Source of the DNA: Diploscapter coronatus
Taxonomy: Eukaryota > Nematoda > Chromadorea > Rhabditida > Rhabditidae
DNA length: 64,000 bases
Assembly: GCA_964036155.1 (NCBI GenBank)
Contig: OZ038423.1
Span: 77,081,249 to 77,145,248, forward strand
Reading direction: 5' to 3'
Shown here: in pieces, positions 30,925 to 58,124 of the stretch
How the letters are laid out: the number at the start of each line of letters is the position of its first letter
Position numbering within the stretch: position 1 is the first letter of the stretch
Notes under the pieces: generated by a model
Databases searched by the model: none
What the model was told of the DNA's origin: nothing
What the model saw: the letters and a program-made list of their open reading frames with translations, nothing else
Made by a program: the position numbers and the translations under genes

Positions 30925-33900
30925 CTAGCAGCGGAGTACAGACAGAGACGTGGCGTAGCTGTGTTGGTCGACGTCCGCGATGCGCAGTTGACGAAATCGC
31001 GGAGTCACGTGCAACTGAATAATAAATTCTCATTTAGATTCTCAGGACTATTATCTTCATCTATAAATCCTCGGAGAAATAATACAAAAATTCGACTTTA
31101 TCTTTCCGGAGAAAACTGGAATTCCTATTGAATCTTAAAAAAAAAACAAACAAATAAAGAACAACATTTAGAGGAAGATTGATGAAGTTCGACTTTTTCA
31201 CAACATCTTCATTTTTTAAAGAAAATTTCAAAATGCCGACCTGATAAACGACGATGTCTCCATTGTTGGTGATCTCGAGCGTGGCGCCCATGTTGATTGC
31301 TCTGGGCAGTTTGCCTTTGTAGCCTGGCGCAGAGAACAGCGTCACCAGCCGACCTTCAACCCATATCGCGTAGCCGTCCAGAGGCGCCTGCAACAATTCT
31401 TCAAAAAATAATTAAATAGGGTTTATTCATCATTAAAATTTTGTATAAACTGTGCTATAAGAAAAAGACGGATAAAATTGTACTGTTTTCTCCAACACTA
31501 ACTAAATCCGATAATAATAAGTTCAAATGCTGATAGTGAGAAAATGCAGCGTGCTGAAAATCTTTAAAATGTAAGATTTGCAATGAACTGATTGAGTTCC
31601 AATATTTTCATGGGAAATTTCAAAATTCTTCAGACTTGCGAAATATATGAGAATTATTAGCGATTGCATAAAACTCGGCCACCTGATGTCCACGAATGAT
31701 CATGTCGACACCCAGCTCGTCGCAAGCCTTCCGCACCGCTTCTGCTGAGAATAGCTGACCCACGCCTTGCTTCGGATCGCTGCAAAATACGAAATGTTTG
31801 ACAACCTGGAACCGCATGACCTCATGACATGCGAAGTAGTGTATGGTTAGGAGAGGATATATGACGGTAGGCTCTTTTCCTAGATTATTTCACATGTCAT
31901 GAGATTGTGCGTGTCATGTGATTTCCAAGTTGCCAAATTTTCAAATACTTTGCGAATTCGGAAAGAAAGTTTTAAATTTCAGCAAGTTAATGTAAAATTG
32001 CAAAGTTTAATGTTTCAATGAATTCTCCATCCTTTTCGTTCAGCTTTTCTCATTGGGTGCGGCAAACTTTCCCCAATTTTATATCATTTTATCAAAGGAA
32101 AAAAGTTTATTCAAAATCTAACCGTTCGAAATTAGGCATGTAGAGCGAGTTCTTCATGTTGGTGTTCGGGTCAGACCAAACCTAAAAATGTTAGGGATAA
32201 AAATTAGCGTTAGAGCCTACGATAGGAACTTCAGATAATTTTCCAGATTAAAATCTTTCTCGACTTTTGAATGATAATCATAGGTACTTTTCCTGATAAA
32301 TTACTTTTTAGTTATATTTCCCCATGATTATCAGTCCAGAAGATTGACTTTTTGCTTCTCTAAACATACCAAATCGCAAGCCAGCGTGTCGTTCTGAAAT
32401 GAACAAATGCGATTTCCCTTATTTTCTTCTAAACTAAGAGGAAAAAATCACTAACACTCTAGACCAAAATAGAGCAGAACATATTTCGACAAAAATTATA
32501 AAAGTAAAGGTAAAATGTACCTTGAAATAGTCGATGGGTCGTTCAATCTGGCGTATGTCCTGAAAACTTATCCTTTTATCATTCTTATAAAAGCTGTGTC
32601 AAAAAGTTTGGGATCTTCACAAATTCAGAAATCCTTTTTCGAGCATATGAAAAATTAGGAAACTTCGTCTCTACTTTCTTTGAAGTGTCTTTATTGCAAA
32701 AAGAGATTTTAACCAATTTCTATATTGATGGAAAGCTAATATTACAGCATTTCACAAACTTCCAGCATTCTATTTATGGATAAAACCCAATCCAAATAGT
32801 TGAGTCAAAGAAATGAAAGCTCTAAAGTTTCGAAAATGAAAGGAAAGTAACCTCGAGCGATTTGAGCTTGGGGCTAAGACCACCGTGCATTCCAAGAATT
32901 CGACCGCCAATGACGATGGCCAGGGGCAGGTAGTTGAAGCACTGCTTGTAGTAGTCGTACAACATGTCCGCTGCAAATCGAACTAGAACTCTAATGCAAT
33001 TACATTAATCCTCAGTGTGAAAATTTATAACGGGTCTGGATCAAAATGATAGGCCAAAAGCCGAAACCTAGAGACAAAAATGATACTTCTCGCATTAGAA
33101 TATAATTTTAATGGTTTAGGCCGCCGACATTCTCACTCTATTTCTTCCAATTGATGAATCTATAAAAGAAGAAGTGTCGCTGAAAAGTTTGATTCTCATA
33201 CTCCTTTCTAATATCTCATAAGCAATTTTTCGAAAAAGTGAAAAATTCGGGCGAGGGAGATTTATACCAAACATTACGAGGAAAGCTCTTCGAATTTTGA
33301 TACAAGTCGCCCCAACTCAAAGCCCATGAACTTACATGGATATCTGGCGATGGTCTCGTTGTAGAAGGAATAGGCCTTGTTGAGTCCCTTCTCCTCGTGA
33401 TTGCCTCTGATCACGAATACATTCGACGTGAACACCAACTGAAGCTCATGGCACATTTCTTTTGAATCGCGACGAATGCGAGAAAGTGGAATAACTTCAA
33501 GAAAAGATGAAGTCATCTTGCTTTGTAAATAATGAAATTGATTTTTTTTCACTCTTATTGTTTTAATTTTCACTTTTTTCAATTTTTCCTTTTTGACAAT
33601 CAGTTTCATCATCTTAAAAATTGTGTAAAAATTCAAGTTCACCTTGAGACACATGATCAACGCGAAAACCTCCATGCCATGGCTACCGCGATCCACAAAA
33701 TCTCCAAGGAAAACGCACATGAAAATTATTCATACTAATTTTGTCTATCGAGACTTCTAGATTTTGTAAAGTTTAGAATAATTACAGGGTCTAGTAGGTG
33801 GAGATAATCTTCTTCTGGACTATTCAGGAAAAAATTAAGAAGAGAAGAGGAAGAAAATAACGATGATACTATTCTCACGTAAGTAGTAGTTTTCAATGCT

Positions 33901-38900: not shown

Positions 38901-40106
38901 ACACCCTATCAGAAAATCAGAACGAGGCAAATTGGCAGGTTTGCAACACGAAAAAGTAAGTTGACTTCGAAACCAAGTTCGGGAGAGAATTTCGCTTGAA
39001 GTTTGGGACAAACTCGATTTTTTGAAATTTCAGAAGGCAGTTTCCCACAAACTCGACAGGTCGTAAATCTTCAAATTTCTGCAAATGTACATTTCTTCTC
39101 TTTCGAGACTATTTTATTCTAATTCCGGGGTTTAACATGTTTCAAGAAAACTCTAATTTCCGATTCTTGTGTCATAAGATATATTTTGATGAACCAATAT
39201 GAAACTCATGGAACTTGTTTGTAGTGATTTTTCACTGATTTTGAAAGAAGAATAAACATAAAATTTCCCTTTCAATGTGATTTGTTGACTGGCTTATCCT
39301 GGAAAAATCAGTGTTCTGAAATAGCGTTAACCTTGAACCTTTTTAGTGTGAAAAATGAAGGTGGATCTATTTTCTTTCCGAGTAGTGCAGAAATTGATGC
39401 AATTTGGCAAAGCTAAGAAAACACGTATCGCAAAGTTTCGTCATCATATTCGGTGAATGGAGGAAGAGCTGAGAATAGGAAAAGGTTGGGAGCAGAGCTG
39501 TCTGAACTGAACTGTGAACTTAACTGAACTTCCGACTTGCTGGAAGTTCAAGTTCAATTCAGTTCGACTCGAGAAATTTTTGAAAGTTCAAGTTAAGTTA
39601 AAGTTTGATTTTTTCCGAACTTCCAATATCCCTGCTTTTAATATTTATTAAAGCTTCTTACTCTCCCTTCTGATCTTGTTTCATTTGAATGCGAGATGAT
39701 GACATTCGAAATAGAACAGATTATTGTTCAACCAATTCAAAATCCCTTTATTTGTTTATTTCTAATTCCTAAGTATTTGTCGAAATTATTGATTTTATGA
39801 TAGGCAAACGTCGGAAGTTTGTCGATCCGATATTTGAATCTTGCTGAGAAATATCGTAGCCCTACTTTCAATTTACTATTCGTCATTATGAATAAGAGAA
39901 CATTAAAAAGGGCGAATTTTATATCGAACCGAAGACTTCCAAATATGGTGATAAGATTTTTTCTCGCAAAGTATTCGACATCACTATGCTCTTATCAAGT
40001 TTCATTCAATGTAAAAGCTTGCCTTCTTGCTCCTAATGACTATTGATTTTTAAAATTTATTTCCTAAATCAGTACAAATTTTTAATTAAAAAATTAAAGA
40101 ATAAAA
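38901..40106. other. intergenic region with a GAACTT-rich dispersed repeat
   Basis: No gene is supported. A repeat at about 39491-39630, built from GAAGTTCAAGTT/AACTTGAACTTC units, is shared with 46553-46642. Confidence 0.5.
39491..39630. repeat. dispersed repeat, GAAGTTCAAGTT-type, copy 1
   Basis: Shares the ordered blocks CTGGAAGTTCA, AAGTTAAGTTAAAGT and TGATTTT-TCC-AACTTC with the copy at 46553-46642. It lies 0.5 kb before the Hsp70-Kelch gene. Confidence 0.6.
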
Positions 40107-42903
40107 ATGGTCTATGTCGGCATCGACTTGGGCACGACATATTCCTGTGTTTCTGTCGTCGAGGATGGCAAACCTGTTGCAATCATTAACGAAGATGGTA
40201 AATGAAAGTTTATTATTCGAAAGTTCATCGATTATAAGATTGTTGGATAGGAAATTTTCATGAATGATTTTTCATTTGGACTTCGTCATATTCAGGGAAG
40301 CCTACGATGCCTTCAGTAGTTGCATATTGTGACCCAGAAATTCTCGCTGGGAATCCTGCCCTAATGTGCAACACAGACGTGACGAATATTCTATACGGTT
40401 AGAAGGAATGAAATCGTAAAAAATAAAGAATCATTGAAGATTCAAAAAGACTAATTGGTTGGAAATTCCTGCATGACTTGCCGAACGCTGAGAGTCGACA
40501 ATTATGGACTTTTAACGTTGATACGAGAAATGTAAAATTGCTGGAGTTCATTTTAGAATGATATGTTTAGAGTAGAGCTGGTTATGTCTTGAACAAGGGA
40601 ACTGCTAAGGAGAAGTTTCTTAAACCCGAAGAAGTTTCTGCTGAGATCTTGAAGAAACTGAAAGCAAATGCTGAGGTTAGACTTGTAGAAAATCTATTTT
40701 AAAAACAATTTGATGCAGAAACATCTCTCAACGAAAGTGACCGGTGCAGTTATCAGTGCCTGCCCTATTCAATTCTGACCAAATTGAAGCAACAAAGAGA
40801 GCCGTTGAACTGGCTGGACTCGAATTGAAATATTTGCTGGAAGAGCCCACTTCGGCTGCAATCGCCTACAATCACAAAAAGAAATTCGAGAATTCGAAAC
40901 TCTTGATCTTCGATTTCGGAGGAGGTTGATCTGTAGTATTTTAATGAGAAATTATAGAAGATTTCCAGGTACTCTCGACATAAGTATCGCTGAGATTAAA
41001 GACAAAAATCTCGAAGTAAAGGCTGTTGGTGGGGATACTCAATTAGGTAAAACGGATCAATAGAAGTTTTAAACATATGATTAACTTAGGCGGGCAGGAT
41101 TTTGATGGAAAAATAATGAACTATTCAATTGATGAGTTTTCCAAATCGTCGTCGAATTATGATATTTATAAAAAGCCAAAACTGATAAGACGACTTCGCA
41201 CTGCTTGTAAAGAAGGAAAGGAAGCCCTTTCTTTCAATCTCTCGTCGTACAATATCCATGTAGAGCTAATCATCGAAATTTTTACATCGTAGTTTATTTC
41301 TAGATCGACATAAACGATGAATTAGATCTAAACGTTGGCATGACCCCGAACAAGTTGAACGAACTATGCAATAAATTGTACAACAAGGCTATGCGTCAGG
41401 TGGATAATGTACTGAATACAGCACAATTGAAAGCATCACAAATCGATCATGTGGTATATTTATAATTTCCTTGATTACTTTCTGCATCCTTATTTATTTT
41501 TAGATTTTGGTTGGAGGAATGACCAGAATTCCTTTTCTACAGCAAAAATTAGCAGATAAATTCGGAAGGAATAAATTGAAATTCGATATAAATCCAGACG
41601 AGGCTATAGCTTATGGGGCTGCGATTATCGCAGATGCTTTGGAAGTTTGAATATAAATAATTGATTACTAAAATGGAAGTGATAATTTCAGAAAGGAATT
41701 GAAATCCCATTGATTGAATTATCTCGGAATATCAATAATTCGCATAAAATTCTACTTTATGGTAAGAAATAATGTTGAAAGCTAAGTAAGAGACTTTGAA
41801 ACGATTCGTAATAATTTAGTTCTTTATCAAAATAATAATGGTACATATGAAGGAAGAATAGGCTTGTTCAATTCATATACCTCCTCAGTCGAAGAGATTG
41901 CAAAATTCCACAATTGGTATGCGCCATTTAAAGTAGCAGCTACACAGAATAAAGTAAATTCTTATGTTCGTTATTTTGAATAATTTCTTGACTTCAGATT
42001 TTTGGAATTAACGGCAGAAATAAATCATTTGAAATATATGACTCAAATACTCGCCAAATTTCACGAGGTCTATTCAACAAATCCATGAATGATCGATTCA
42101 AAGAGTTTTACAGGTCCAGATCCTCCTGAATGGCGTAAACATGCATCTGTTGCTTATTTTAAAGACAAATTGTATTATTTGGGTGGACACATTCCTGGAA
42201 GCGGAAGAATGACAGATCGAGTTGACGTAAGAAGATCGAGTGAAAGTCCATGAAATAATTTATTCAGGTTTTAATGAATGGACAATGGCAAACAGGACCT
42301 GCTTTTCCTCTTCCGCTTAGTAGTGTTCAAACAATAACATGCGATGGAATTTTATACGGTCACGTTATAGCATATTCATTATTGTAATTATGGATATTCA
42401 GTTATTGAGGAATGGGGTAATAACAAAATATATCGATTATCAGACGATGAACGGAAATGGAAAGAAGTTGGAGAGATTCCAGAAATACGAATTTCTTTTG
42501 GAGTTGCATCATTAAATGGAAGAGTTTACATAACTGGAGGACGGAAGTCGTTAATTTTGTATGATAAATAATGCATCATTATATATTTAGCTGTCTTAAT
42601 GTATTCAAATCCTGTCTGTGTTTCGACCCCTCAGCCTCAGTTGACAGTCGAATTTCTCGAATCGCTGATATGAATTATGAAAGATGTCATCATTCACTCA
42701 TTGTCGCTAACGAGAAATTGTATGCAATCGGAGGGTGAGTTGAGATTCTGCATATCTTTATACCAAATATTTGTTAACTTAGATTTCAAAATACTGAGAA
42801 AAGAAGTGATGGTTTATACTGGTCGATAAACTTCCGTGACGTTATTGAAGAATACGACCCACAAACGAATAAATGGCGTGAAGTCGGAAAAGTTAATACC
42901 TGA
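40107..42903 (+). CDS. Hsp70 ATPase domain fused to a Kelch-like propeller (one apparent frameshift)
   Basis: About 17 small exons join with consistent phases. The first part is an Hsp70 nucleotide-binding domain: [17 protein letters not shown] (phosphate 1), [51 protein letters not shown] (phosphate 2), [16 protein letters not shown] (adenosine motif) and [17 protein letters not shown]. After [13 protein letters not shown], where the Hsp70 linker and substrate-binding domain should begin, the exons instead encode Kelch-like repeats: [49 protein letters not shown] and [16 protein letters not shown], then stop. Length is about 680 residues, roughly 400 plus 280. A frame change of -2 (or +1) occurs near 40758-40762, between TGAVIS and VPALFNSDQ. 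All other exons are intact. AATAAA follows at 42950. Function is unknown; an ATP-driven propeller adaptor is only a guess. The frameshift may be real decay or a sequence error. Confidence 0.85.
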
Positions 42904-42949
42904 AATATTCAATTTCAATACATTGTTTTCATAATTTTCGTGTGATTTC

Positions 42950-42955
42950 AATAAA
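42950..42955 (+). terminator. polyadenylation signal of the Hsp70-Kelch gene
   Basis: AATAAA lies 47 bases after the stop codon. It is retained in the truncated copy at 46440-46445. Confidence 0.6.
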
Positions 42956-43007
42956 AAGTATCTTTATTCAATTTCGTACATTCTAACTCGATACACATAA
43001 TGCAGAC

Positions 43008-43066
43008 CAGAGCTGAGACGAAGTTTCGACTTCGAATTTGAAGATTTAAACTCCGCCTCAGTTCTG
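43008..43066. mobile_element. 59-bp hAT-like MITE with 8-bp target-site duplication
   Basis: The element starts CAGAGCTGAG and ends CTCAGTTCTG, a 10-bp inverted repeat with one mismatch. It is flanked by direct copies of ATGCAGAC (43000-43007 and 43067-43074). The related sequence at about 46475 has a single ATACAGAC, an empty site. An 8-bp duplication with CAG-starting termini is typical of hAT elements. Confidence 0.8.
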
Positions 43067-43112
43067 ATGCAGACAACCCTCGAAGACATCCAATAAAGAC
43101 GCTGAGAAATTA

Positions 43113-43193
43113 GGCTCCTAGAAAAAGATCACTTTTCCCTATCTTTTTTCTCCCATACTATTCTTAAAAAGGTGGTGTCTTTTTCTATGAGCC
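43113..43193. mobile_element. 81-bp MITE with 9-bp target-site duplication
   Basis: Ends GGCTCCTAGAAAAAGA and TCTTTTTCTATGAGCC are inverted repeats with one mismatch in 16. GAGAAATTA is duplicated on both sides (43104-43112 and 43194-43202). The paralogous sequence near 46515 lacks the insert. A 9-bp duplication would fit Mutator-like or Merlin-like non-autonomous elements. Confidence 0.75.
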
Positions 43194-43259
43194 GAGAAAT
43201 TACAACTGAAATAGGTATTCTTTAAAATAGTTTTCGATAAAAATAACGAAATATACTTA

Positions 43260-46278: not shown

Positions 46279-46550
46279 TGAGATTTTGCATATCTTTATG
46301 CGAAATATTTGTAATTTGGATGTCAAAGTTCAATCGAGGAATACGATCCACAAACGAATGAATGGCGTGAAGTCAGAGAAATTAACATAAAATAAAGCTT
46401 GATTATAACAATCTCAGATTTCATATAGAAAGTTTATTCAATAAAGTATGAAATAATAATTTAATTTCAATGCACATTATACAGACAACTCTCGAAGACA
46501 TCCAAAAGTAACGAGGGAAAATTGTAATTGAAATAAATATTCCTTTTAAT
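46279..46550 (+). pseudogene. truncated duplicate of the 3' end of the Hsp70-Kelch gene
   Basis: Aligned by eye to 42734-43240: the intron (TTTGCATATCTTTAT), the last exon (GAATACGATCCACAAACGAA, then TGGCGTGAAGTC) and the 3' flank, including AATAAA and AACTCTCGAAGACATCC. The copy lacks about 50 bases of the exon and both MITE insertions of the parent. It encodes only [22 protein letters not shown], so it cannot be functional alone. Confidence 0.8.
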
Positions 46551-46552
46551 CA

Positions 46553-46642
46553 GGGTTGTACAAATTGAGCTGAACTTCGAACTGCCTGGAAGTTCAGTTC
46601 AAGTTAAGTTAAAGTCTGATTTTATCCAAACTTCAGACAGTT
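46553..46642. repeat. dispersed repeat, GAAGTTCAAGTT-type, copy 2
   Basis: Matches 39491-39630 in ordered blocks (GAACTGCCTGGAAGTTCA, then AAGTTAAGTTAAAGTCTGA). It directly abuts the hairpin element at 46646. Confidence 0.6.
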
Positions 46643-53000: not shown

Positions 53001-54130
53001 AAAAAAAACTGTCGCCACGCCCCCTCAATTCCTTTATTTCAAACTTCATAGTCAAATCGTAGATGGGGTGTATGTGTTCAGAATCCGAAAACTGCTGTGA
53101 AGATCAACTCTTATTCTTGTGATTTTTGTAATACTGGTCTTTGATATCTGACTCAGTTGAAAGGCAGATCTTACTTTAGAGGTGGTATATGGACATTTCA
53201 ATTTCAACATTTAAGAACCTCGAGATCCATAAATCTCCTTCAGATCAACATGACATATTTTTGTAGATTTTCTCCCTTTAATGAAAATGATTATCATTTT
53301 TCTTCTAAAAACCAAACCCATTTTGTTAAAATTAAAAGAGTGACCGAGAATTCTCGTCCATTTTTTCAATTTGCGTGCCGCTACCTAATTCTACGTTAGC
53401 CAACGTGTACCTCGGGAGCGAAAAAGTGTTCAATTAGGGGAAATAGTATTTGTCAAGAAAGACTGCAAATATAAGGAGGGTTCGAGAGAATCGGTACTGT
53501 GATGAGAGATTCTGAACTGGAGAGGGGCAAAAGAGAAGGGGGAACCAGTTTGAACCTGTCCTTGCGCTTCTAGCATTTTCTCTCTGCCTTCTTCGTGTGT
53601 TGAGGCCATTTGTCTATCTCTAGCAAATCTTCCGATTTTCGTCAAATCTCGATTCTTATTTTTCTCGCAAAAATCGCCTTGTCCTTACCTATTTTCGGCA
53701 GTTTTTGCATATATCAGCACCTTTTTCGGAAAGTGCGGCCGCTCACAAAAACTCCCCCATTTGTCATTAGTCGCCCCTTGCAGCAGACTAGCTTTGATCC
53801 CAGCCCTCCGGATCGTCTCACCCCTTCATCTCCCTTCTTCTCTTCTTAATTTCTCTCCTTCCTCCCTCGTTTTTCTTCCTATCCTCTCCAGGATCCCCCA
53901 CTTGATCGTGTCTTCGTTCCACATAATAAGCCAAACACTTCGGCACCTCTACATAGGCTTTTTCCATTGTAATAGCACTCAATTTGCACCTTTCAAAGCA
54001 ACAATCCTCGTCAATTTTGTTTGGAAAAGAGCGGTACAAAAAAGTGCTGTTTGGAAATGGGAATTTCGAAAGTTTCGCCGATTTCTAGTCACTTTTTTTT
54101 TTTTGGAAGAAAATGTATCTTTCAGGTAAA
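50100..54130. other. gene-poor region between RAD1 and prolyl hydroxylase, containing a SINE
   Basis: No exon chain with protein similarity was found. ORFs of 60 to 124 codons (for example 50575-50949 and 53761-54129) lie in pyrimidine-rich tracts, overlap others and lack domains. It contains the SINE at 51105-51403 and a small inverted repeat (CTAGAATCTC / GAGATTCTAG) near 52643-52730. Confidence 0.5.
51105..51403 (+). mobile_element. tRNA-derived SINE with poly(A) tail and 18-bp target-site duplication
   Basis: The 5' end is tRNA-like: an A box (TAGCGCAGTGG, 51115-51125) and a B-box-like AGTTCGCCCCC (51156-51166) about 30 bases apart, the usual RNA polymerase III promoter spacing. A non-tRNA body follows, and the element ends in a run of 14 A. 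It is flanked by perfect direct repeats TTTCCCAGTTTTTATTTT at 51087-51104 and 51404-51421, the mark of target-primed reverse transcription. It has no ORF and would depend on a LINE enzyme. Intact flanks suggest a young insertion. Confidence 0.9.
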
Positions 54131-57100
54131 ATGGCCGCTTGGCTATTATCCAGTTGGCTTTTGTGCTGCATTGCAAACTCTATTTTGGCAGATTTGTTCA
54201 CTTCGGTGGCCGATTTGCAAGGCTTGTTGGACACGGAACGAGCCATCCCCGGACTGTTGAGCAGATATATCGTAGAGGAGGAACAGAGACTCGAGAGGAT
54301 CCGAGAGTAAGTCGAGTTTTATACAGGGTGACCTACGCTATTTTTAGTACATTTAAAAAAAGATAATTTTCTTCCTAATGATAATTTTCGAAAACGATCA
54401 ACGAGAATCAATTTTCATCATAGGGAGAAATGTAAATTGCATGGATTCATATTTTCCGGTTACAATATTTCCTGGGCATACCGATGGCGGACCCTTTTCC
54501 GGATTTGATCGCAGAAAAACTAAGTTCCTGGTATATGCTTATAGCATACTGGAACTGAAAAAGCTGTGAAATGATGTATTTTAAAACTTCTCTCTATGGT
54601 GAGAATTGATTCTCGATGATCGTTTTCTAAAATAGTTATTAGGAAAAAGTTTATTTAAAAAAATAACTACTAAAATAGCTTAGATTACCCTGTACTTTCT
54701 TCTACTTGATATGTTGAGACCAGTAAATGTTTGAAAAATTGAAACGAACGTCATGTAATTTGATTAATTCATAAAATATCGTCGATATCAGATACATTTT
54801 TATTTGCTAATTCTATAACTCCATAATATATGACAGTTCTTATTATTTCGATTTGATAGAGTAAAAGTTAGTGTAACCTGGAAATTTCGATATTTCATTA
54901 TTTTTGCCATAATCGAAATGGCATGACTGAAAAATAACTCGATTCCCATATTAAGTAGCGTATCTTTTCAGAGAAATGAGTCTTTTCAATACGAATTCTA
55001 AAAATCCACCAAATTTGAAGAAACGTTTTTTTTTTTCCAAAAATGATATTTTTCAGATTAGCCCAGCAATATCAGCAGAGGAATGAAGAGTCGATCGAGA
55101 CGGGCATCAAGGATATCACCAATCCGATCAACGCCTTCCTTATGATCAAGAGAAAGGTGGCGACTTTTTTCTAGAAAAACGAGTTATCTAAAAAATATTC
55201 CTGTGAAAAATAACACGAAAATAGTCGCGATTTTTAAACAATGGCTATTGAAATTTTGAAGAAACGAAGAACGATACTCTCAGAAATGGACTTGATAAAA
55301 TTCCAATTCAAAAAGAAAACGGAATTTTTAGATTTTCGACTGGCGCAGGTTGGAAAAGGAAATGGGCGTCAATACCGCAGATACATTCATCAGAAAAATC
55401 GCCGAGGCCAATTACGGAGTCAGATATCCTACTGAGGTAAGAGAAGAATAAAGAATAAACTTTCAGGTTTTTAATACTATCTATTCTTACATTTTTCTCT
55501 TCATTTCGAAAAGAAAAGACTTTCTTTTGAAAATACGAATATTTTAAGGAAGATTTGACGGGAGCTGCAATTGGTTTGCTTCGTCTGCAGGACACGTACA
55601 GACTGGACACTCACGATTTGGCAGAGGGCAGAATCTATAAGGAACAGGGCAATTACACTTTCAGTGGTCAGTTCATTTGCTTTCTTAAAAAAAGCTAAAA
55701 AATGAATTTTAGCCCGCGATTGCTTCGAAATCGCCCGAGCCGCTTACAACGAGCAGGACTACTATCACACGATTATGTGGATGCAGGAGGCCAGGAGAAA
55801 GGCCGAGAAGGAGGATGTCCCTACGGCTGATATCGAGGACGTAAGCTTATTTCTAGCAGGAGTTAGACGGAATTTTCATACTTTACATTTTAGATTATCG
55901 AATATCTCTCCTTCTCTCTGTACAAACAAGGCAATCTCAAACACGCCCTGCAGCTTACTGAGGAGCTTCACAAAATCAGTAAGTCTTTATTTTTTAAAGT
56001 TAGCGAAGAATAGACATTCGAAACTAGCGTTTTTAAAATTATTGCGTTGCTAGGAAAAGTCCCTTCTTTAACTGTTCAAATGTCTGACTGGAAAGATAGC
56101 TAATGTTTGACACTTGCAGACCCTCAGCACCCCAGAGCCAAAGGCAACATCAAGTGGTACGAGGACTTGCTTGCAGAGGAGGGAGTGAGGAAGACCGAGT
56201 TCCGCAAGAATCTGCCTGCCATCGTCAACCGCAGACCCGAGTCTGTTCTCGGCAACAAGGAACGAACCATCTATGAGGCTCTCTGCAGAGGAGAAGTTCC
56301 AGTGGTAGGCTTTTTCCAAATATTATCGCACCTTCGAAATTTTATTATTACAAGAAGCCAAAAGTACATTTTTGTCTGTTTAGAGTGATAAGGAGCTCTC
56401 GAAGCTGTACTGCTACTACAAGCGAGACCGTCCCTTCCTCGTCTACGCCCCAGTCAAAGTGGAAATCAAGCGATTCAACCCTCTGGCCGTTCTGTTTAAA
56501 AACGTGCTGAACGAGGAGGAAATGGATGTGATCAAGGAGTTGGCCGGTCCCAAATTGGCCAGAGCCACTGTCCACGATTCTGCCACTGGAAAACTCGTCA
56601 CCGCTACTTACAGGTACTTTTTACGTTTTATTTCAGAAAGGTAAACGACTTGAAGAAACATGGAAAAGTACTGAATTTGCATCTTGTATATTACCACTAC
56701 AGATGTCTTTCTTCATAATTTAGTACACTCATTAATGATTCGAAGCTATTAAAGAAAGAACAAATGTCTCACAAAAGGATTAACAGTTCCTTTCTACTTG
56801 ATTTTTTTTTTATCAGTTTTTCAAAATAATATTTTTTAGAATTTCAAAGAGTGCGTGGCTGAAGGGATGGGAGCACGAGGTTGTGGATCGAGTGAACAGG
56901 CGACTGGACATGATGACCAACTTGGAGATGGAAACTGCAGAGGAATTGCAGATTGCCAACTACGGAATTGGTAGGGATTACTTATCTTAATCAGAATTAA
57001 AGAATATCTGTACGAGGATGGAGAAGCAAAAAACCACGATATAAACAATTATGACTGAACTAAATTTTGGCAAATTGATTATAGCAAGAGAAGGTTCTGA

Positions 57101-58124
57101 AGTGCCAGTCGGAAGTTTGGCTAAACTCGGTCTCAAATGAACGGGCACATTGAGCTGACATCGGAGATGCGGGTTTACCTATCCCGTCCCACGATTTGGG
57201 TAAAAATCGTCACTGGCACTCCTATAAAATTTATACCACTGTTATCAGCTCAATATGCCCGTTTATTTGAAACTGAATTTAGTCAAATCCTCGACTGACA
57301 CTCGAAAACTTTCCCTTGTAAACGGCAATAGCTTTTGATAAGTCTTGGAAAAAGCTAAAGGAAACCTTATAGAAACAGTTTTCATGTTATCAGAAAGTAT
57401 TCTTTCACAATTTTTCATTCCAAAATATCAACTGAAAAAACTTAGGCGGACACTATGATCCCCACTTCGATCATGCTCGCAAGGAGGAGGGCAAATCTTT
57501 CGAGTCCCTGGGAACAGGAAACCGAATCGCCACAGTTCTCCTCTACATGTCACAGCCTCTGCACGGAGGTGGCACTGTCTTCACTGAGGCTAAATCCACT
57601 ATTCAGCCTATTAATGGAGATGCTCTGTTCTGGTTAGTTAGTTTTTTTTAAAATAAAATTATTGAAATAGTTATGAATCGGATATGGCTGTGAAGAAAAT
57701 GGATTTTCCGCTTCCATTTTCCTAGATTATTTAAAATAGCAAATATTCTCTAGGTATAATCTTCATAAGATGGGAGATGGCGATGCCAGAACGAGACACG
57801 CCGCCTGCCCTGTTCTAGTTGGAATCAAGTGGGTGAGCAACAAGTGGATCCACGAACGAGGAAACGAGTTCCGTCGGAAATGCGGATTGAAGTTCAGCGA
57901 TACTGAACGGTTAGTTCTTATTTTCAACGAAAAATCAAATTATGCAAATTCTTTTTGAAAAATGTAAAAAAAGCCTTAATGAATAAATTTTACCTTCAAA
58001 CAAGTTCTATTTTTCCTGAAAATTAAATTTCAGATACGTCGGAGATATCGGAATTGGCCCCGAACCCCGTGACGCCCCCAACCTGTCGCCTGATTTGTCA
58101 AAGGACATTTTCGAAACTATTTAG
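54131..58124 (+). CDS. collagen prolyl 4-hydroxylase alpha subunit (PHY-1/DPY-18 type)
   Basis: This enzyme of the endoplasmic reticulum hydroxylates proline in collagen X-Pro-Gly repeats, using Fe(II), 2-oxoglutarate and ascorbate, in complex with PDI. The ATG at 54131 lies 5 bases after a TTTCAG acceptor and opens a signal peptide (MAAWLLSSWLLCCIANSILA). The N-terminal domain follows (DLFTSVADLQGLLDTE). Exons then run 54131-54306, 55057-55156, 55332-55436 and on. The peptide-binding TPR region includes ARAAYNEQDYYHTIMWMQEA. The catalytic domain has the iron ligands H and D in HYDPHFDHARKEE (near 57450) and H in HAACPVLVGIKWVSNKWIHE (near 57790), whose K binds 2-oxoglutarate. The stop TAG is at 58122-58124. 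Length is about 530 residues, normal for the family. In nematodes it is required for cuticle collagen. One intron carries a fold-back repeat (57096-57305). Confidence 0.95.
57096..57305. repeat. inverted repeat with about 62-bp arms in a prolyl hydroxylase intron
   Basis: The left arm 57096-57160 and the right arm 57243-57305 pair at roughly four of five positions (for example ACGGGCACATTGAGCTGA against its complement in TATCAGCTCAATATGCCCGT). It is MITE-like and older than the other fold-backs here. Confidence 0.65.

Follow-up and report, generated by a model that had tools for sequence, protein, structure and literature searches.

A Diploscapter gene family with an Hsp70 nucleotide-binding domain joined to a Kelch propeller, and its member in Diploscapter coronatus, frameshifted as assembled

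The usual picture of Hsp70 is that of a single conserved machine, composed of an ATPase and a peptide clamp and driven by J-proteins. Atypical Hsp70s, or those with only the nucleotide-binding domain (NBD), such as HSPA13/STCH and HSPA12, indicate that this domain can function where a canonical substrate-binding domain is missing, and neither of these is known to carry a Kelch propeller. In nematodes, passages of Weinstein et al. 2019 (PMC6872716) tie an expansion of Hsp70 genes in Halicephalobus and Diploscapter to heat adaptation, and describe a Diploscapter Cluster III of 59 genes with positive selection at its root, next to a Cluster II found in H. mephisto only; WR25_05901 was tested there as branch J, a D. 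pachys branch that Table 3 of the paper lists under clusters II/III. Here we analyze a gene at positions 40107-42903 (+) of a 64,000-nucleotide stretch of Diploscapter coronatus (contig OZ038423.1, positions 77,081,249 to 77,145,248; hereafter the window), together with its relatives in D. pachys. The sequences indicate that fusions of an Hsp70 NBD with Kelch repeats form a real, multi-gene family in Diploscapter, of which the window copy is a member that is broken as assembled.

The gene is composed of 17 exons (Table 1) separated by 16 introns of 39-98 bp, all of which have GT-AG borders and which are poorer in G+C than the exons (0.267 vs 0.388). The Pfam HSP70 profile (PF00012) covers the N-terminal part in two pieces, with profile positions 2-139 on exons 1 to 5a (E=1e-29) and positions 140-375 of 599 on exons 5b to 9 (E=5.4e-70). 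The match ends there, leaving the substrate-binding domain unmatched, and is followed by Kelch profiles (Kelch_6, E=4.6e-21; Kelch_1, E=2.2e-18). Both the NBD and the Kelch repeats are thus identified with certainty. Among solved structures in the PDB, Hsp70 NBDs match the NBD part, and the best sequence matches of the Kelch part are designed Kelch proteins, followed by KLHL-type propellers. A fold search with a model of the paralogue P0050 returned Hsp70s only among the matches listed; the propeller was judged on the model of another paralogue, P0001, which has the fold of a KLHL-type six-bladed Kelch propeller. Seven D. pachys gene models were compared with the exon joins, and each of the 16 is bridged without gaps in one or more of them, those between exons 15 and 16 and between exons 16 and 17 by a single row each (P0002b and P0004, respectively). 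Exons 11 and 12 together measure 204 nt, such that skipping them would preserve the frame and drop about one blade, and eight D. pachys gene models read straight over this position, as if the two exons were skipped. Exon 17 contains a single stop, which terminates the gene at 42901-42903. Rfam gave no matches at the gathering score.

The initial annotation of this locus had described seventeen or so exons linking, with matching splice phases, an Hsp70 NBD with all ATP-binding motifs to Kelch-like repeats in place of the substrate-binding domain. The exon structure, both domains and the replacement are borne out by the results above, as are the ATP-binding motifs, since D10, T13, E175, D199, T204 and D206 are all present in an alignment read across the frameshift in exon 5. 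However, one continuous reading frame over the 17 exons is not present as assembled, and the matching of splice phases therefore does not hold throughout. The summed exons come to 2023 bases (3n+1), and exon 5 is the only one of the 17 that is closed in the required frame, the other 16 being open. In exon 5, ...KVTGAVIS and VPALFNSDQ... lie in two successive frames, and the exposed TGA limits the direct product to 149 residues. P0039 of D. pachys, the nearest relative, is unbroken across the stretch matching this break. We rejected splicing around the frameshift, as introns formed from donors and acceptors within exon 5 would either be no longer than about 20 nt or remove the conserved VPALFNSDQ strand (sequence read by eye). 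The shift may be a true mutation or an assembly error.

To collect relatives, we used the linker and Kelch part (residues 375-674, including the last few NBD residues) and the NBD as separate queries. The former search listed 45 proteins at E<=1e-5 from 1373 candidates, among which four D. pachys proteins (P0001-P0004) match both HSP70 and Kelch profiles. The latter, in which the 7995 candidates sharing most words were scored and the best 120 of these listed, so that lower-ranking fusions could exist elsewhere, added P0050 and others. Reading these sequences, we found at least 14 D. pachys proteins that carry this NBD with a full or partial Kelch part (P0001-P0004, P0007, P0008, P0021, P0039, P0042, P0048, P0050, P0056, P0058 and P0065). 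The Kelch part of P0050 is under the Pfam cut-off, yet it aligns along its length. P0001, P0002b, P0003b, P0004 and P0050, which lie on different contigs, show 40-68% identity over the linker and Kelch, each over the part covered. The NBD-Kelch order proposed in the initial annotation recurs in D. pachys proteins, contrary to the possibility raised there that no relative would share the fusion, and its view that no family with this order had been described agrees with our literature searches, directed at Diploscapter and at the fusion, which found no description of an Hsp70 NBD-Kelch protein. The main text of the D. coronatus genome paper (PMC5483258) has no occurrence of kelch, hsp70 or heat shock.

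We built an NBD tree of 36 rows, comprising 23 family rows including the window, 10 canonical Hsp70s, two full-length D. pachys Hsp70s and the first half of P0047. A 100/100 branch separates the 23 family rows from all the others, although treekit flagged a risk of misplacement for long branches, including P0047b. The window NBD falls in one 100/100 clade with WR25_05901 (P0057), which we infer to belong to Cluster III, since Cluster II is composed of H. mephisto genes only. In a subclade of P0053, P0057, P0066 and P0067 no Kelch is seen. P0057, P0066 and P0067, and also P0004 and P0058, contain another divergent NBD-like part (AIDIGTS...), located after the first NBD or after the Kelch stretch. 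P0003 (WR25_13422) and P0028 (WR25_09435) combine a protein kinase with this Kelch stretch (seen by eye and with kinase profiles), and in P0028 a full-length Hsp70 comes after the kinase-Kelch part; modular swapping and gene-model error are both possible for these joins.

We then compared R155, R171 and N174, whose numbering and roles on the J-protein and linker face we take to be those of Hsc70/DnaK work. For R171, a place at the J-domain is stated in the titles of PDB entries 2qwn, 2qwo and 2qwq. In the window NBD these residues are I, Y and E, and none of the 15 Kelch-bearing D. pachys units keeps any of them, in contrast to the control Hsp70s, which keep R155 in 87, R171 in 88 and N174 in 87 of 88 cases. 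R155 and R171 are present in both full-length D. pachys Hsp70s, and N174 in one of them. Among D. pachys relatives without an annotated Kelch, P0053 has lost all three, and one or two of the arginines are retained in P0057, P0066, P0067 and both halves of P0047. The ATP-binding residues are conserved in most family members. The second unit of P0002 (WR25_17308), with H, M, N and M at D10, T13, D199 and T204 and its propeller kept, is likely a pseudo-ATPase. At the aligned L390, L392 and L393 of the DLLLLD-type linker the window has A, G and I, positions at which both full-length D. pachys Hsp70s likewise deviate; the EIPLIEL of exon 10 may be what is left of such a linker. Since R155, R171 and N174 are replaced, and the second unit of P0002 has also lost catalytic residues, a canonical cycle of J-protein and clamp is unlikely in this family. 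The initial annotation had suggested that the Hsp70 ATP cycle would be coupled with the propeller; any such coupling would have to do without these three residues of the classical coupling face, which all 15 Kelch-bearing units have replaced.

The reading that we favor, and regard as fairly probable as a whole, is that the window gene belongs to a Diploscapter family whose members carry a KLHL-like six-bladed Kelch propeller where Hsp70 has its substrate-binding half, the latter having been replaced, and that the fusion protein would not be a canonical folding chaperone. The layout that we consider most likely is that of a nucleotide-binding head attached to a propeller that binds a ligand. 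The NBD would serve as a slow or static head that J-proteins no longer control, and the propeller would bind a specific partner, as KLHL propellers do, making the protein an adaptor or sensor. Copies in the family would duplicate and decay, and may also have been joined to other heads such as kinases, and the window copy would be a recent casualty, or intact but mis-assembled. Several points weigh against this reading. As assembled, the window copy cannot make the fusion protein, and the relatives are gene predictions, several of them visibly truncated or mis-framed, so that not all need be intact genes. The P0001 model, on which the propeller was judged, has a mean predicted local distance difference test score (pLDDT) of 60, with 15 of the 24 ten-residue blocks from residue 241 on at 70 or above, and its NBD is a truncated prediction. 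The residue loss is not strictly tied to Kelch, since P0046 and P0054, in which no Kelch is annotated, also have I, Y and E, and it could reflect relaxed constraint, not new function. Finally, a single origin of the fusion is not supported by the NBD tree, which needs four changes, with one origin in 0% of bootstrap trees and long branches flagged; Kelch-bearing rows do not form one side of any branch within the family.

Two other explanations concern the locus itself. Two adjacent genes might have been wrongly joined, an Hsp70 with only the NBD, whose end would be near 41650, and an independent Kelch gene, as an in-frame stop lies just past exon 9 if the intron is left unspliced (open reading frame 41504-41650), and P0053 of D. 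pachys ends right after its NBD, though its 382 residues may be a clipped gene model. We rejected this artefact because NBD, linker and Kelch recur in that order in the paralogues on different contigs at the identities given above, and consider it very improbable: only 47 bp lie between exons 9 and 10, this join is bridged by five paralogue rows (P0050, P0002b, P0003b, P0004 and P0039), and no AATAAA was found at the NBD/Kelch border (41640-41820), the closest of the nine at 40000-43200, some of them within the gene, being at 41570 and 41948. In contrast, there is an even chance that the family is real elsewhere and the window locus is a dead pseudogene in which nothing works. The frameshift and early stop in exon 5 fit such a fate, as do several weak donors (e.g. 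GTCACG and GTCGTT) and the decayed fragment nearby, which shows that copies die here; however, every exon except exon 5 is open in the frame needed, every splice site is GT-AG, a single small indel can be an assembly error, and the nearest relatives, P0039 and P0048, retain the frame.

Two more explanations concern the function of the family. The proteins might be heat-protective Hsp70 chaperones with the propeller as a new client-binding domain, binding and release being driven by the NBD cycle. The retained ATP-binding residues, the loose likeness by eye of EIPLIEL to a DLLLLD-type linker and the tie to heat drawn in passages of PMC6872716 favor this, but the replacement of R155, R171 and N174, the loss of catalytic residues in the P0002 second unit and the lack of a perfect heat-shock element at 39000-40107 make it improbable. 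Somewhat less improbable, though still doubtful, is by analogy an NLR-like set of intracellular sensors, in which proteins made of an NTP-binding head and a propeller that binds ligands and diversifies would have expanded for pathogen or stress recognition. The many copies, the decay of copies, the positive selection at the cluster root reported in those passages and the kinase-Kelch combinations of P0003 and P0028 are in line with this, except that the kinase joins may be gene-model errors. Returning to the favored adaptor or sensor, a nematode lineage seems to retain the ATPase, to drop the clamp and the J-protein-face residues, and to gain a protein-binding propeller in many copies. We tentatively suggest, as an unlikely but possible extension, that a diversifying Kelch domain serves in recognition, with the Hsp70 NBD as its nucleotide switch, giving lineage-specific ATP-binding sensors or adaptors that would resemble NLRs in layout (NTPase plus repeat sensor) and combine chaperone and ubiquitin-adaptor parts. 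If the favored reading is true, the published "heat-adaptation" expansion of Hsp70 would have to be reread, since some of its genes may not be chaperones, and the family would be a natural test of how an Hsp70 NBD behaves without a substrate-binding domain.

Coordinates of the features are given in Table 1. The decayed second copy shows 86-87% identity to 42741-42790 and 42844-42896 and 78% to 43067-43111 of the gene and its flank; its intron-16-like part is 86% kept, with the acceptor AG changed to GG (by eye). A 39-nt repeat (92% identity) that occurs upstream of the gene and just past the decayed copy could be either a trace of the duplication or a dispersed element. At 39000-40107 there is no perfect three-unit heat-shock element, and three elements with one mismatch occur (39019, 39141 and 39577). 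Over the whole window, sites with at most one mismatch number 75, compared with shuffle means of 49.9 and 51.5 (reached by 0 and 1 of 100 shuffles); these counts, in which the same sites were read on opposite strands in the two scans, were not used as evidence. The prolyl 4-hydroxylase alpha gene is closest to D. pachys WR25_16535, with 91-100% identity in eight of ten tblastn blocks, the other two crossing introns with gaps, and 75-78% identity in the next nine matches. This similarity places the window in Diploscapter, and would fit another haplotype of D. pachys as well as a close congener.

Table 1. Features of the window, in window coordinates
Feature	Position	Strand	Basis
Exons 1-5, first part of NBD	40107-40197, 40296-40397, 40440-40531, 40571-40675, 40719-40924	+	HSP70 profile, GT-AG introns
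Frameshift in exon 5	40749-40778; break near 40755-40757, exposed TGA 40776-40778	+	exon reading, P0039 comparison
Exons 6-9, second part of NBD, ending ...AIIADALE	40969-41046, 41090-41259, 41304-41453, 41504-41644	+	HSP70 profile, PDB Hsp70 NBDs
Exon 10, linker and propeller start	41692-41761	+	join 9/10 bridged by paralogues
Exons 11-12, about one degenerate blade	41820-41953, 41998-42067	+	paralogue alignment
Exons 13-17, Kelch repeats	42114-42226, 42268-42358, 42402-42546, 42591-42734, 42783-42903	+	Kelch_6/Kelch_1, KLHL-type PDB matches
AATAAA polyadenylation-type signal	42950-42955	+	47 nt 3' of final stop
Decayed second copy of family-gene 3' end (intron 16, part of exon 17, 3' flank)	46279-46523	+	identity to gene
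39-nt repeat	39585-39623, 46596-46634		92% identity
Prolyl 4-hydroxylase alpha gene	54113-58121		closest to WR25_16535
Calcineurin-like (Metallophos) phosphatase piece	33274-33729	-	GNHE motif, E=1.2e-05

Compared with known systems, the window gene shares with Cluster III its lineage-specific expansion and the clade that contains WR25_05901. However, neither a fusion to Kelch nor the replacement of R155, R171 and N174 is found in those passages of PMC6872716, which tie the genes to heat, and the word kelch does not occur in its main text. With the KLHL proteins (BTB-BACK-Kelch; e.g. KLHL20, KEAP1 and IVNS1ABP/NS1-BP) it shares the Kelch repeats and the six-bladed propeller fold, but its N-terminal part is an Hsp70 NBD, and no match to BTB or BACK was listed in the profile search of the window protein. 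As this part is an NBD instead of BTB-BACK, the fusion protein would not be expected to dock Cullin-3. With the cytosolic Hsp70/Hsc70 proteins (HSPA1/HSPA8 type) it has in common the NBD sequence, the fold and the ATP-binding residues, whereas it differs from them in having neither the substrate-binding domain nor R155, R171 and N174, and in ending in a propeller.
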